Virus record (IMG/VR): IMGVR_UViG_3300036857_000138
Coordinates: 1 to 50,004 of that record
DNA: 50,004 nt
Origin: a virus
Direction: 5' to 3' (one strand)
Shown here: piece after piece, positions 26,706-37,259 of the stretch
Layout: every line of letters begins with the position of its first letter
Position numbering within the stretch: position 1 is the stretch's first letter
Made by a program: the position numbers and the translations under genes
The notes under the pieces: generated by a model
Seen by the model: the letters and a program-made list of their open reading frames with translations, nothing else
Told to the model about the DNA's origin: nothing
Database searches by the model: none

Positions 26706-27128
26706 CTACGTGATCGGCTCGTCGGCCGAGACTTCGAGCGCGACCATCTTCTTATCCGAAGAGTTCGAGTCGTGATCGGGATGGACGAAGCCGGTCAGCG
26801 TGCCGGTGAAAGTGAGCGGATCGCCGGTCGGCGACCGATCGGTTTTCAGCATCACGCGCTTCGCGGTCACGGTTCCGATCCCGACCATGCGGTCGAGTTT
26901 CTTCGCGTAGGGGTGATCTCGCTCTAGCTTGTAGAGGCGTTGCAGGGTGAAGTCGTCGCGGGACACCGGGCCGCCGAGCGATTCCTCGGGACCCATCCCG
27001 CCGGGGCGGTGCTTCGTTGACTCGGCTTTCGCCGCGCCGCCCTCGAACATGTCGAAGACGCCGAGCGCCAGCGTTTCGCCGTTCCCTTCGATCGTGACGG
27101 TGACTCTCTCTTGATCGGTGCGGCTCAT
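26706..27128 (-). CDS. Tail tube protein
   Basis: 140 residues directly after the sheath gene with an ATGA overlap, the usual sheath-tube pair of contractile tails. Beta-rich with ERVTVTIEGNGETLALGVFD, a V-S-R-D-D-F-T-L-Q-R-L-Y motif as in several small tube proteins, and D-P-L-T-F-T-G-T-L-T-G-F-V. It builds the inner tube through which DNA passes. Family call by order and fold pattern. Confidence 0.75.
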   Translation of the reverse strand: MSRTDQERVTVTIEGNGETLALGVFDMFEGGAAKAESTKHRPGGMGPEESLGGPVSRDDFTLQRLYKLERDHPYAKKLDRMVGIGTVTAKRVMLKTDRSPTGDPLTFTGTLTGFVHPDHDSNSSDKKMVALEVSADEPIT

Positions 27129-28570
27129 TGCGCGATCGCTTCCGTTGTCGGGACCTTGACGATTTCGACGGTGAGGACTTCGCCGGTGCGCGAAGTTCGG
27201 ATGGCGATCTGGGCCTTGATTTCTTCGCGGGCGATGCTTTCCGGCGTGTTCACGTCAGGGCCGGTATTGACGTTGAAGGCTTCGTCGGGGGTCTGGCCGT
27301 AGAGGGCGTTCGCCATGTAGAACGGCAGGCAGGCCCGGCCCGAGAGGTCGGCTTCGAGGTCCTTGAAGATGTAGCCGTGGCCGTCGATCTGGGCGAAGTC
27401 GTAGTCCTCCATCACGAGGTCGGCGGCGGCCGCGACGGCCATCACGACCCGGCTCGCGGCGAAGCTCGCCCAGTCGCCATCGGTCGTCGGGTTGACGAGG
27501 GTCCGGTTGCCGTAGGTCATCGGTATCCCGCGCTTGAGGATCGCCACGGTGACGCCGGAGTTGTTGAGCGTTTCGCGTTCGGCGTCGGTGTACTGGACCG
27601 AGAGGTTGGTCGCGTAGCGACAGGCCCCGCGCTTACCGGCGGCGGCCTCGCCCGGCGAGTGCCCTTCGCCCTCCGAGCGAGCGATCAGGCCCATCTGGAT
27701 CGCCGACCAGGGGACCGTCCGGGTCGTGCCTTTGGTCAGCCCCGGTATCACCGCGTGAGCCGCCAGGAGAGCGCCGTAGCGGGCACCGGTGACGGATCGG
27801 AGGGCAACCCCTCGCGTCGTCAATTCGCCGCTCGCATCGGACGCGAGATCGAGCAGCGCCCGACGATTGTTTTCGTTGCAATGGGCGAGGATCGCTTTGT
27901 GCATCGCTTCGGTCTGGAACCCCGGCGCGGCGATCTGGCCGGGGCCGAGATCGCGGGTGAAGAGTTTGAGCGCGGCTTCGACCTGCGCTTGTTCGACTTT
28001 CGAGTTTTTGTCTTCGCCGCCGGTCAGTTCGACGGTCTGCGCTTTCGGGATCGCTTCCCCGGCTTCGCCGACTTCGGCGTTGACGTACTGCGAGGTCTGA
28101 TTCGCCCAGTTGACGATCTGTTCGATCGTCGTCAGTTCGGCAACCGACTCGACGACGACGCCGCTCAGTTCGACGATGATCGTCGCTTTGCCGCCCGCGA
28201 CTTCGACTTTGACTTTGAGTTTGTTGCCCCATTCACCGGCCGACTCGGCTTTCAATTTGACGACTTTTTTGCCGCCGGTGTCGGCGAGTTCGGCGGCCGC
28301 CTGTTTCGCCCCTTCCCCGATCGCCCGGCCGATGTAGATGCGCGAGGCCCCCTCGCGGAAGGCCGCATCGACGCAGTCGTAGAGCAGCGGGAACCCGGTC
28401 ACGCGCCCCCCGTACCGGGCCACGAAATCGGCCAGCGAGACGACCGCGAGCGCTTTGTTGGTCGGGCCTCGTTCGCTGACCCCGACTAGAAACCCGTTGG
28501 CGGTCGAGCCAGCCGAAGTCGGGGCGGCGGCTCGTTCGCCGATTAGTACGGTGTGGCCCGGCAGCGGCAT
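27125..28570 (-). CDS. Contractile tail sheath protein
   Basis: 481 residues. N-terminus P-L-P-G-H-T-V-L-I-G-E-R, then G-V-S-E-R-G-P and D-F-V-A-R-Y-G-G-R, and a C-terminal domain with R-G-A-C-R-Y-A-T-N, G-D-W-A-S-F-A-A-S-R-V-V-M-A-V and a final beta strand (GEVLTVEIVKVPTTEAI): the landmarks of phage sheath proteins. This defines the phage as a myovirus. ATG start. Confidence 0.9.
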   Translation of the reverse strand: MPLPGHTVLIGERAAAPTSAGSTANGFLVGVSERGPTNKALAVVSLADFVARYGGRVTGFPLLYDCVDAAFREGASRIYIGRAIGEGAKQAAAELADTGGKKVVKLKAESAGEWGNKLKVKVEVAGGKATIIVELSGVVVESVAELTTIEQIVNWANQTSQYVNAEVGEAGEAIPKAQTVELTGGEDKNSKVEQAQVEAALKLFTRDLGPGQIAAPGFQTEAMHKAILAHCNENNRRALLDLASDASGELTTRGVALRSVTGARYGALLAAHAVIPGLTKGTTRTVPWSAIQMGLIARSEGEGHSPGEAAAGKRGACRYATNLSVQYTDAERETLNNSGVTVAILKRGIPMTYGNRTLVNPTTDGDWASFAASRVVMAVAAAADLVMEDYDFAQIDGHGYIFKDLEADLSGRACLPFYMANALYGQTPDEAFNVNTGPDVNTPESIAREEIKAQIAIRTSRTGEVLTVEIVKVPTTEAIAQ

Positions 28571-33760: not shown

Positions 33761-33943
33761 CTACAACGGGGCGGTCGTCGAGCCGTCGCGCTCGGTCCGC
33801 TCGAAAGCGACGAAGAGGCTCGCGTCCATCGGCGAATACCCGTACTGCTCGATCAGCTTTTGGGTGAACAGTTGAACGTCGATCGGGTCTTTCAAGGCCC
33901 GCGCTTCCTCGGCCAGTTTTTCGATCTCGGCGGTTTCCATCAC
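33761..33943 (-). CDS. Small helical protein after the minor head gene
   Basis: 60 residues; GTG 33943 (GTGA overlap) and ATG 33940 are both possible starts. Helices E-I-E-K-L-A-E-E-A-R-A-L and V-Q-L-F-T-Q-K-L-I-E-Q-Y with a Y-S-P-M-D turn. A head-region protein of unknown role. Confidence 0.6.
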   Translation of the reverse strand: MMETAEIEKLAEEARALKDPIDVQLFTQKLIEQYGYSPMDASLFVAFERTERDGSTTAPL

Positions 33944-35796
33944 TCGCCTTTCCAGATGCCATTCGCCTTCAAGAGCGCGACCATTTTCTCACGGATCGGT
34001 GCCCATTCCTCGTCGGTCCAGTTGTACATGCCGGGTTTGTGATTGCGGTGTACGGCGCGGACCCGTTCGAGGCCTAGCTCGCGGGCGATGAAATGCTCGA
34101 AGACGCGGGCGAACTGCTCGGAGCCTTCGAGCAGGTAGTTGCGGTAGCCCTGCGACCAGACCGCCGACCAGCCCTCATTGATCACCTTCGGCTGGGAGAG
34201 GAACCGGATCGGGGCCGAGTTGCCGACCTCGGCCATCAGGTCGGCCAACTCCGGCGAGGCCTGCGCGATCTTCGCCGGGTCACTCCACTCGGTCAGGAAG
34301 ACCTCGCCCGAGGGCCGGATCGTCGGGTGCTTGAGGGCGAGCAGATTGTCGAGCCGGTGGCCTAGCTCGTGACTGGTCGCCGTCCGCCAGTAGGCCGCGT
34401 CGGCGAGCGCTTCGTTCGCCGCCACGTCGTAGTAGAGGCGGGCGGCTCGCGTCTCGTTGCCAGCCCCGAGCGCGGCGACCGCCCCTTTTGCCTGACCGAG
34501 CGGCGGCGCATCCTCAAGCGCGACGACGCCCTCGTCGGCGGGGAAGGCGAGCAGCTTGTCCATATCCTCTAGGGCCTGTTCGGCCCCCGGCTTCGCGTAT
34601 TTGAGGCCGAACTCGCCGTGTATCCGATCGCTCGGGCGGATCGAGCGGGTCATTTCCTCCCAGCGCCGGACGTGACCGGCGACGGCGTCTTTCGCCACTT
34701 CGGCGGCGCTCGCGGTCGGCCCGGCCGGGACTGGCGGCTCGGGGATCGGGACCGGCGGTTGCGCCGGTGGCGGTGCCCCCGCCCGGCCGTACACGGCGAC
34801 GAGGGTGCCCCGGCACCGCAGGCCGCCTTCGCATTCGACGTAGCCCCCGGTCGGATAGTCCTCTTCGGCTTCGGCCAGGGTGTCGTATTCGGTTCCGTCA
34901 ATATCCGCGCAGGGGCCGCAGGTGTTTTCGTCCATGACCTCGCTCGCGTAGATCGCCATCCTCACCGCCCCGCCGGGGTCGGCGCGGGCGATGATCGGCT
35001 CGACCGGCGGTTCTTCCTGCGCCCGCATGAACGCCTTACGCCCGGCGTTGTAGGCCTGCATCGTCGCCCCCCCGAGTTGCAGTTCAAGCTCGGCGTCGGA
35101 GAGTTCGAGCAGGTAGGAACGGACGGCCTGACCGGCGGCGGTCGCTTCGAGGGTCGAGACGGCGGCGGCTTTTTTTGCGGCGGCGGTCGAGAGGCCGTTC
35201 GCCAGGTTGACGACGACGGCCCCGGCCCGCTCGTTGGCCTGTTCGTTGACGGCGCTCGGATCGACCTGCACCGGCTCGATATCGCCGATCTGCGATACGA
35301 ACTCCGACCGGGCCGAGGTCGCACCGGCGGCGGCCGCGTCCTGTAGGTGCCCGGCGACGAGCAGCGGTTCGACCGGCTGGACCGTGATCCGGGCCAGGTT
35401 GACGGCGTTCCCGGCGGCGGCTTCGGTGGCCTCGACCGCTTCCTCGATCTGGTCGAGTTGAGCGCGTTTGTAGTCGGCCAGCAGCGACGCCCGCTGGCGC
35501 TGATAGACCTGCTCCATGTCGGCGAAGTCAGCCCCCGAGGCGACCTCGTGATCGAGTAGCTCACGCCGGAGTTCGCGGTTCGGCAGTTGATGCCCGGCGG
35601 TCAGGGCGAGGGTGCCGTCAGGGTGCCGATGCAGGACCCCGGCGTCGAGCAGTTCGTCCCGAGCGCGGCGTGCAGTCCCGTTTTTCGGGTCGGTGCCAAT
35701 GGCGCGTGCCAACTGCGGCCAGGTCCGCCGCTGGCCCGCCGCCTCGGTTATCCGCGCCGCGACCTCCCGGCGGACTGAGCCGTCGCGGCTTGCACT
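33940..35796 (-). CDS. Mu F-like minor head protein with C-terminal zincin, probably made as a portal fusion
   Basis: The frame is open through the portal end and reads A-S-R-D-G-S-V-R-R-E-V-A-A-R-I-T-E-A-A-G, a winged-helix-like start, without ATG, GTG or TTG until the TTG at 35712. From 35796 a -1 frameshift in the portal mRNA joins it with 488 portal residues (618 more follow). The middle resembles Mu gpF/SPP1 gp7 (helical, with C-G-P-C-A-D-I-D-G and C-R-G-T-L). At about residue 448, counted from the TTG, comes T-S-H-E-L-G-H-R-L-D, a zincin metal motif. It probably acts inside the head or is injected. Confidence 0.75.
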   Translation of the reverse strand, partial: SASRDGSVRREVAARITEAAGQRRTWPQLARAIGTDPKNGTARRARDELLDAGVLHRHPDGTLALTAGHQLPNRELRRELLDHEVASGADFADMEQVYQRQRASLLADYKRAQLDQIEEAVEATEAAAGNAVNLARITVQPVEPLLVAGHLQDAAAAGATSARSEFVSQIGDIEPVQVDPSAVNEQANERAGAVVVNLANGLSTAAAKKAAAVSTLEATAAGQAVRSYLLELSDAELELQLGGATMQAYNAGRKAFMRAQEEPPVEPIIARADPGGAVRMAIYASEVMDENTCGPCADIDGTEYDTLAEAEEDYPTGGYVECEGGLRCRGTLVAVYGRAGAPPPAQPPVPIPEPPVPAGPTASAAEVAKDAVAGHVRRWEEMTRSIRPSDRIHGEFGLKYAKPGAEQALEDMDKLLAFPADEGVVALEDAPPLGQAKGAVAALGAGNETRAARLYYDVAANEALADAAYWRTATSHELGHRLDNLLALKHPTIRPSGEVFLTEWSDPAKIAQASPELADLMAEVGNSAPIRFLSQPKVINEGWSAVWSQGYRNYLLEGSEQFARVFEHFIARELGLERVRAVHRNHKPGMYNWTDEEWAPIREKMVALLKANGIWKGE

Positions 35797-37259
35797 TTTG
35801 GGGGTGCGGTCGGCGGCGATCGTTCGTGTTCGCGGACCGGCACCCCTTCGGCGTTGGGATCGAGCGGCGGCGGCACCGCTGCTTCGCCTTCGCCTTCCGG
35901 GGCAGGTTCACCTTCGGCACTATCACCGCCCGGTTCACCGGAGGGCGGGGCAGGCGTTTCGTCCTCCGGCTCGGGCGGCCTCGGCACGCCGAACCGGTCG
36001 GCGAGCAGGACTCGAAGCTCGGGGGTCGCCGCGATCAGCCCCGATTCGACGGCGGTTTTGAGATCGGCGATCGAGAGGGCGGCGTCCTCGACGCGGGTGT
36101 AGGTCAGCCGGGGCGGCGTCTCGTCCGGCCCCCAGTTGAGTTCGACTTCGTCTTCGATCTGGTAGGCCTGCGTCGTCGCCGCGTACCAGTCTGCGATCGC
36201 CGTCTGGGCCTGCGAGTACCAGTCGATGAACTCCGAGCCGAGTGCCCGCGACCCCGTCTCGGTCGTGCCGAGGTTGAAGAACAAGAGCAGGAACGCCTTG
36301 CTCATCTGCTCGTCGTGATAGCGGACCGAGCCGATCGTGTCGGGCAGGATGCCTTCGACCCCGGCGATTCTGAGACGGCCCTGACCGGCCCCGCCGACGT
36401 ATTCCCCGGCCCTGATTTCGGCGGCGATTTTCGCTAGCTCTTGGACCTGTTTGTCGTTGCCGTCTTCGACCTCGAACCAGGGGATACCCATGCTGTTTCG
36501 CTCGTGCTTGGTCGCGTCGAGCCGCAGTAGCCGGTCCTTGATCGCCCAGTTCGGATGACAGGATCGGAGCATCGACCGGCCGACCCAGTCGGCGTCGTCC
36601 TCGGGTTCCCAGATGTAGCCGAGCAGCCGCTCGATCCCCAGCGTCCGGCCGGTCAGCGTCTCGACCCCGAGCGCCGAGCCGTTGCCGTTGCTCGACGGGG
36701 CACCGAGGACCTGCTGCTGGATCGCCCGGAGCGCCCCGTTGTCTTCGAGGACGAAGTTCGAGATCGTCCGGGGCGGGCGGGTGCCGAGCTTTTTCAGGTG
36801 GACGAGGCCGTCGTCGCCGATCTCGTACACCTGCTCGAAGTAGTAGTGGCCGTAGCCGAGGGCCTGTAGCGCGTGGGCCAGGTGGCGGTCGTGATTGAAC
36901 CGGCCCCGCTGGCGGATCGTCGTCTGGTCTTCGCCCCGGATCGGCAGGTTGAGCGAGGCCGCGACGTGTTTCGTGACCGAGGCTTTGGCCCCGTTCGGGT
37001 CGAGTTCCCAGCGGTAGCGGCGGATCGGCAACGTCGTCGCCAGCAGCAGCCCTTTGACCTGCGCGTCGGCCTGCATCCGGCGGTAGGTGTCCGACGATTT
37101 CGGCCAGGTGAGATCGGGGGCCGTCTCGCGCTCGTCGATGAACGTTGACCACGGCAGGACCGAGCCGAGGCCCGCGATCGGCGTGCCAATGTCCGCCGGT
37201 GCGCCGACCTCGCGGGTCGGGGCCTGCTCGCCGCTCGGTGCTTTGGCGGTGTCGGCCAT
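35748..37259 (-). CDS. Portal protein (Mu gp29-like)
   Basis: 503 residues from ATG 37259 in the zero frame. Core motifs D-A-Q-V-K-G-L-L-L-A-T-T-L-P-I, then G-Y-G-H-Y-Y-F-E-Q-V-Y and P-P-R-T-I-S-N-F, and L-G-S-E-F-I-D-W-Y-S-Q-A-Q match gp29-like portals (DUF935). It forms the dodecameric DNA gate and terminase dock. The last 60 residues are Pro-rich, low-complexity. A -1 frameshift signal near codon 488 would replace the last 15 residues by the minor head protein. Confidence 0.85.
   Translation of the reverse strand: MADTAKAPSGEQAPTREVGAPADIGTPIAGLGSVLPWSTFIDERETAPDLTWPKSSDTYRRMQADAQVKGLLLATTLPIRRYRWELDPNGAKASVTKHVAASLNLPIRGEDQTTIRQRGRFNHDRHLAHALQALGYGHYYFEQVYEIGDDGLVHLKKLGTRPPRTISNFVLEDNGALRAIQQQVLGAPSSNGNGSALGVETLTGRTLGIERLLGYIWEPEDDADWVGRSMLRSCHPNWAIKDRLLRLDATKHERNSMGIPWFEVEDGNDKQVQELAKIAAEIRAGEYVGGAGQGRLRIAGVEGILPDTIGSVRYHDEQMSKAFLLLFFNLGTTETGSRALGSEFIDWYSQAQTAIADWYAATTQAYQIEDEVELNWGPDETPPRLTYTRVEDAALSIADLKTAVESGLIAATPELRVLLADRFGVPRPPEPEDETPAPPSGEPGGDSAEGEPAPEGEGEAAVPPPLDPNAEGVPVREHERSPPTAPPKVQAATAQSAGRSRRG
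35756..35802 (-). promoter_or_regulatory. Programmed -1 ribosomal frameshift signal
   Basis: On the minus strand: slippery C CCA AAA (35802-35796, CCA and AAA in the portal frame), spacer GTGCAA (35795-35790), then stem GCCGCGAC (35789-35782) pairing perfectly with GTCGCGGC (35763-35756) over an 18-base loop. Slippery class, spacing of 6 and stem position are all as in established signals. After slippage the frame is that of the minor head gene. Confidence 0.8.

Follow-up and report, generated by a model that had tools for sequence, protein, structure and literature searches.

A candidate −1 frameshift joining the portal and MuF genes of a phage lineage related to single-gene portal–MuF fusions

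Results

The window, that is, the whole stretch of 50,004 bases analyzed here, comes from a GC-rich phage held as an IMG/VR virus record. The phage has a contractile tail, with the tail sheath at 27125–28570, and its late genes run leftward in the order terminase, a 238-amino acid gene, portal, MuF, protease, and major head protein. The portal gene, which contains a Mu-type portal domain, ends at a TAA codon (35750–35748), and the features of the portal–MuF junction are collected in Table 1. The MuF frame is the −1 frame relative to portal and is open from 35907 to 33940; within it, no ATG, GTG, or TTG occurs from 35907 until the TTG at 35712, which lies 36 nucleotides beyond the portal stop. 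The first-pass annotation had described this arrangement, with the minor head frame open across the overlap and lacking a start codon before the TTG, and our reading of the sequence agrees. Elsewhere in the MuF gene, an A AAA AAA run is found in frame at 35176 on the minus strand.

Table 1. Features of the portal–MuF junction in the window
Feature	Position	Strand	Evidence
Portal gene, Portal_Mu family, 0-frame product of 503 amino acids	35748..37259	-	PF06074, E 1.1e-33; PF21919, E 5e-14; phrog_113, E 1e-49
Slippery heptamer C CCA AAA, in portal frame	35796..35802	-	Sequence; same in L002
Spacer GTGCAA, 6 nt	35790..35795	-	Sequence
Perfect 8-bp stem, GCCGCGAC/GTCGCGGC, with 18-nt loop	35756..35789	-	
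−1 frame product after the predicted slip, 618 residues: winged helix, MuF domain, C-terminal domain	33940..35799	-	Homology to fused relatives; codon usage; model
Winged-helix domain	35602..35793	-	AlphaFold model; IclR 1mkm and GntR matches
MuF domain, conserved NTCxxC...DG...CxGGLRCRG motif	34792..35601	-	Homology to fused relatives; phrog_595, E 1.4e-9
C-terminal domain of 280 amino acids with HELGH motif (putative zincin)	33940..34785	-	Window and L002 only

The heptamer sits in the portal frame in the context ACC GCA CCC CCA AAA GTG and is followed, after the spacer, by a stem with arms at 35789–35782 and 35763–35756; the positions that the annotation gave for heptamer, spacer, and stem are exact. 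A −1 slip here would yield a portal–MuF fusion of 1106 amino acids (488 + 618), the product size predicted earlier. In-frame heptamers of the X_XXA_AAN or X_XXT_TTN type are rare in the late genes of the window (3 in 6998 codon pairs), and one of the three is at the portal–MuF junction. By chance, 0.49% of positions are followed by a perfect stem of 8 bp or more with a spacing of 5–9 and a loop of 3–25. In 33 fused relatives, 11 A/T-type heptamers occur in 25188 codon pairs, none of them (0/11) with such a stem, and the other relatives are fused in frame without the heptamer–stem signal. The related site C_CCA_AAG is strongly shift-prone in Escherichia coli (PMC5009743); the window heptamer differs from this proven site in its last base, which is A rather than G.

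The structural part of the signal is less distinctive. The minimum free energy of the 45 nucleotides at the stem (−21.7) ranks among the lowest 2.6% of values for late-gene segments of this phage, but compared with shuffles of its own GC-rich sequence the stem reaches a z-score of only −0.7 to −1.0, which is not significant, and an 81-nucleotide fold favors a different pairing over the 8-bp stem. Fold energy was therefore dropped as proof of the stem because the shuffle test was not significant. Within the loop, GTCCGCC (35775–35769) can pair with GGCGGAC (35729–35723), giving a possible pseudoknot, although 7.7% of shuffles match such pairing. A likely pair of tail assembly chaperone genes, offset by −1, precedes the tape measure gene of the window (26667–26068 and 26188–25865, minus strand), and the overlap of this pair contains no canonical XXXYYYZ heptamer.

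Several observations place coding sequence in the MuF frame ahead of the TTG at 35712. Between heptamer and TTG lie 29 residues that can be aligned with fused relatives, where they are conserved; in an AlphaFold model (mean pLDDT 87) they make up helix 1 and the first part of helix 2 in a winged-helix domain, with helices at residues 3–20, 27–33, and 41–53 and strands at 56–58 and 64–66 in the numbering of the −1 product. A Foldseek search matched IclR (1mkm) over 58 columns at 1.7 Å, along with GntR regulators, bearing out the annotation's guess of a winged helix; E-values are weak over the whole model, but superposition is good over the 58-residue winged-helix domain. The TTG encodes residue 30 of the −1 product, within helix 2, and because the residues before it are conserved in fused relatives and form helix 1, a start there would cut a domain. 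The model thus shows a folded domain that starts ahead of any start codon. The frame favored by codon usage is that of portal upstream and that of MuF downstream of a bracket at 35823–35763, which includes the heptamer and precedes the TTG. A separate MuF gene initiated at the TTG is rejected, since coding signal, homology, and helix 1 all come before it.

The change point of highest likelihood in codon usage is at 35823, 21 nucleotides upstream of the heptamer, so codon usage only brackets the shift. This position would suit a MuF protein that is left unfused and is initiated separately, ahead of the winged helix, from a non-standard codon near 35820 (ATC or ACG, for example). Initiation at such codons is very rare, however, no in-frame ATG, GTG, or TTG is available from 35907 to 35712, and the other separate MuF genes found with a portal begin at an ATG or GTG located between −20 and +8 relative to the portal stop. 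We regard independent initiation of this kind as very improbable.

Relatives were sought both by portal and by MuF, and non-redundant loci were counted. Portal and MuF lie in one continuous ORF at 43 related loci (among them L005, L006, L045, and L091–L097); the annotation had remarked that single-gene fusions are known in some phages. Every relative having the winged-helix segment and a portal on the contig is a single ORF. In the portal tree, the window nests with a second contig, L002, inside a fused clade (support 100/100, then 96/90) whose other 10 members are all single ORFs. Since the tree puts this pair inside the fused clade, the frame break is derived from a fusion, and, judged from these sequences, the single-gene fusion is the ancestral state in the clade. 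A first scan of genome contigs returned no relatives; a second gave five distant actinobacterial loci, and where the portal was present it was fused to MuF or the two were ordinary separate genes. Three in-frame fusions carry a heptamer in or at the edge of the portal–MuF linker, with a −1 stop 5–7 codons on: CCCTTTC at codon 499 of L062, followed by a −29 kcal/mol structure, CCCAAAG at codon 441 of L047, and CCCAAAC at codon 497 of L049. A dnaX-like frameshift at these sites could release portal without MuF.

L002 (IMGVR_UViG_3300044526_000010) is a contig of a different assembly, and both it and the window are metagenome contigs. Over 13.5 kb their identity is about 98%, their portal and MuF genes show 100 differences, and the frame break is exactly the same in both. 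Among the loci found, only this pair has MuF in the −1 frame without a start near the portal stop, and a DNA-pattern search for further strains returned L002 alone. The heptamer site is a C5A4 run, and homopolymer runs draw indel errors; with all close relatives being single ORFs, the break could in principle be an error of sequencing or assembly in what is truly one ORF. Yet the exact break is shared by two assemblies that differ at about 2% of sites, and the downstream stem would not be expected from an error. The sole other broken gene seen, at L063 about 6400, has a 20-bp deletion that breaks the MuF domain compared with L057, the contigs being otherwise identical, and is not a homopolymer error. 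An artifact is therefore unlikely.

Substitutions between the window and L002 indicate that both reading frames are under constraint. In portal, 16 changes are synonymous and 12 non-synonymous (pN/pS about 0.26), compared with 40 and 28 in MuF (pN/pS about 0.24), where 45 of the 68 differences fall at third codon positions; read in the portal frame, the MuF region gives a pN/pS of 1.9. With values near 0.25 in each, both genes are maintained, and the similarity of the MuF value to that of portal argues that MuF is expressed despite the break. The heptamer–stem region lies in 223 nucleotides that are identical between the two, but a second identical block of 311 nucleotides lies nearby and divergence is mosaic, so conservation of the signal does not follow from this identity. 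Patchy divergence of over 10% at 35903–35844 and 35620–35160 stands next to identical blocks, suggesting recombination within the portal–MuF genes.

This mosaic pattern would also fit a genuine, recent indel that split or silenced the fused gene, with MuF lost or poorly made through re-initiation at TTG 35712 and the identical block perhaps spread by recombination. Loss might be tolerated, as the MuF protein of SPP1, gp7, is dispensable for assembly (PMC6316719). But MuF and its C-terminal domain are under purifying selection like portal, re-initiation at the TTG would remove helix 1 of a conserved domain, and it would be a coincidence that a stem and an in-frame heptamer are found where the frame breaks. 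We consider a natural disruption of this sort unlikely.

The MuF domain of the window is 28–50% identical to fused MuF domains, and a Pfam search with it gave no match. Beyond it the window encodes 282 further amino acids containing the HEXXH motif HELGH. The annotation had called this region a metallopeptidase domain; the motif is present and is the sole basis for the label, which we keep as putative, since the domain has no Pfam profile and no PDB sequence match, its fold model is poor (pLDDT 49.7), and no relatives of it were found beyond L002. A role in packaging or processing may be envisaged. Long extensions of this kind are associated with gene arrangement: 42 of the 43 in-frame fusions end within 21 amino acids of the MuF domain, the exception being the distant L148 (173 amino acids), whereas all five separate-gene MuF proteins with a portal on the locus have C-terminal extensions (140–352 amino acids; Fisher p 3.5e-6, not corrected for relatedness). 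The window has an extension of a length missing from almost every in-frame fusion, so a frameshift would make fusion and cargo compatible.

Discussion

A programmed −1 frameshift at C CCA AAA probably restores the portal–MuF fusion in a lineage descended from a single-gene fusion. All the evidence that can be computed from the sequences fits this reading and supports it. Counted against it are a stem that is unexceptional among shuffles and is rearranged in a longer fold, a tail chaperone pair without the canonical heptamer, a codon-usage change point upstream of the site, and the proneness of C5A4 runs to real or false indels. In the ancestor, portal and MuF domains would have formed one polypeptide, and a one-base break would then have arisen in the linker within the window lineage. 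We infer that ribosomes on CCA AAA, pausing at the stem or pseudoknot, shift by −1 in a minority of cases and continue through the winged helix, MuF, and C-terminal domain to make an 1106-amino acid portal–winged helix–MuF–HEXXH protein, with the majority stopping 15 codons after the heptamer to give the 503-amino acid portal. Both forms would then occur in the 12-subunit portal ring, and a few subunits would bring the cargo domain into the head together with MuF and the winged helix. Cargo on an all-fused portal would mean 12 copies in the head, a number that frameshifting would reduce. We are evenly divided on the broader proposal that programmed frameshifting sets the count of portal subunits covalently bearing a MuF-plus-enzyme cargo and arose from an all-fused portal upon addition of the cargo domain.

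The elements of this arrangement have counterparts in other phages. Single-gene portal–MuF fusions have been described in Microbacterium phages of subclusters EA3, EA5, and EA8 and cluster EB (PMC7302621). Single-gene fusions have the same two domains in the same order as the window, and those of the clade studied here also have the same linker and winged helix. Unlike the window, they are one continuous ORF, so MuF is expected on every portal subunit, and they have no C-terminal cargo domain. In Arthrobacter phages Brent, Klevey, and Colucci, portal and MuF are separate genes with their own starts, unlike in the window. SPP1 gp7 is present in few copies and is carried to the procapsid by the portal (PMC6316719), much as proposed here; gp6 and gp7, however, are products of separate genes and bind non-covalently. 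In polyvalent proteins (PMC5512222), MuF is likewise followed by an enzyme-like domain, a C-terminal effector or peptidase, but the domain in the window matches no described family and would be joined to portal via the predicted frameshift.

Frameshifting itself also has precedent in phage structural genes. In gene 10 of T7 and T3, Lactobacillus phage A2, Listeria phages A118 and A500, and lambda G/GT, a structural gene has a shift site close to its end, and a minority of the protein is extended at the C terminus, as predicted for the window. In those systems major capsid proteins, tail proteins, or chaperones are extended, whereas in the window it would be the portal, and by a whole minor head protein. 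One and the same extension can result, depending on the phage, from a −1 shift, a +1 shift, or decoding in frame, and extensions of this kind switch from the frameshifted to the in-frame state and back (Atkins et al. 2016, PMC5009743). Our literature search found no paper reporting a portal–MuF frameshift. The authors of PRFect speculated that gene pairs fused elsewhere, MuF-like genes being named, might use frameshifting when split (PMC10885494), and the window provides a concrete, testable case of this idea with comparative support.

Portal rings are treated as homo-dodecamers, and little is understood about how a few copies of MuF come to be recruited to the portal. With a portal–MuF protein made by frameshifting, the ring would be deliberately mixed and a set number of cargo proteins could be loaded covalently. 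If true, the composition of the portal ring would be under translational control, and this lineage would be an example of a phage gene that changes between fusion in frame and recoding.
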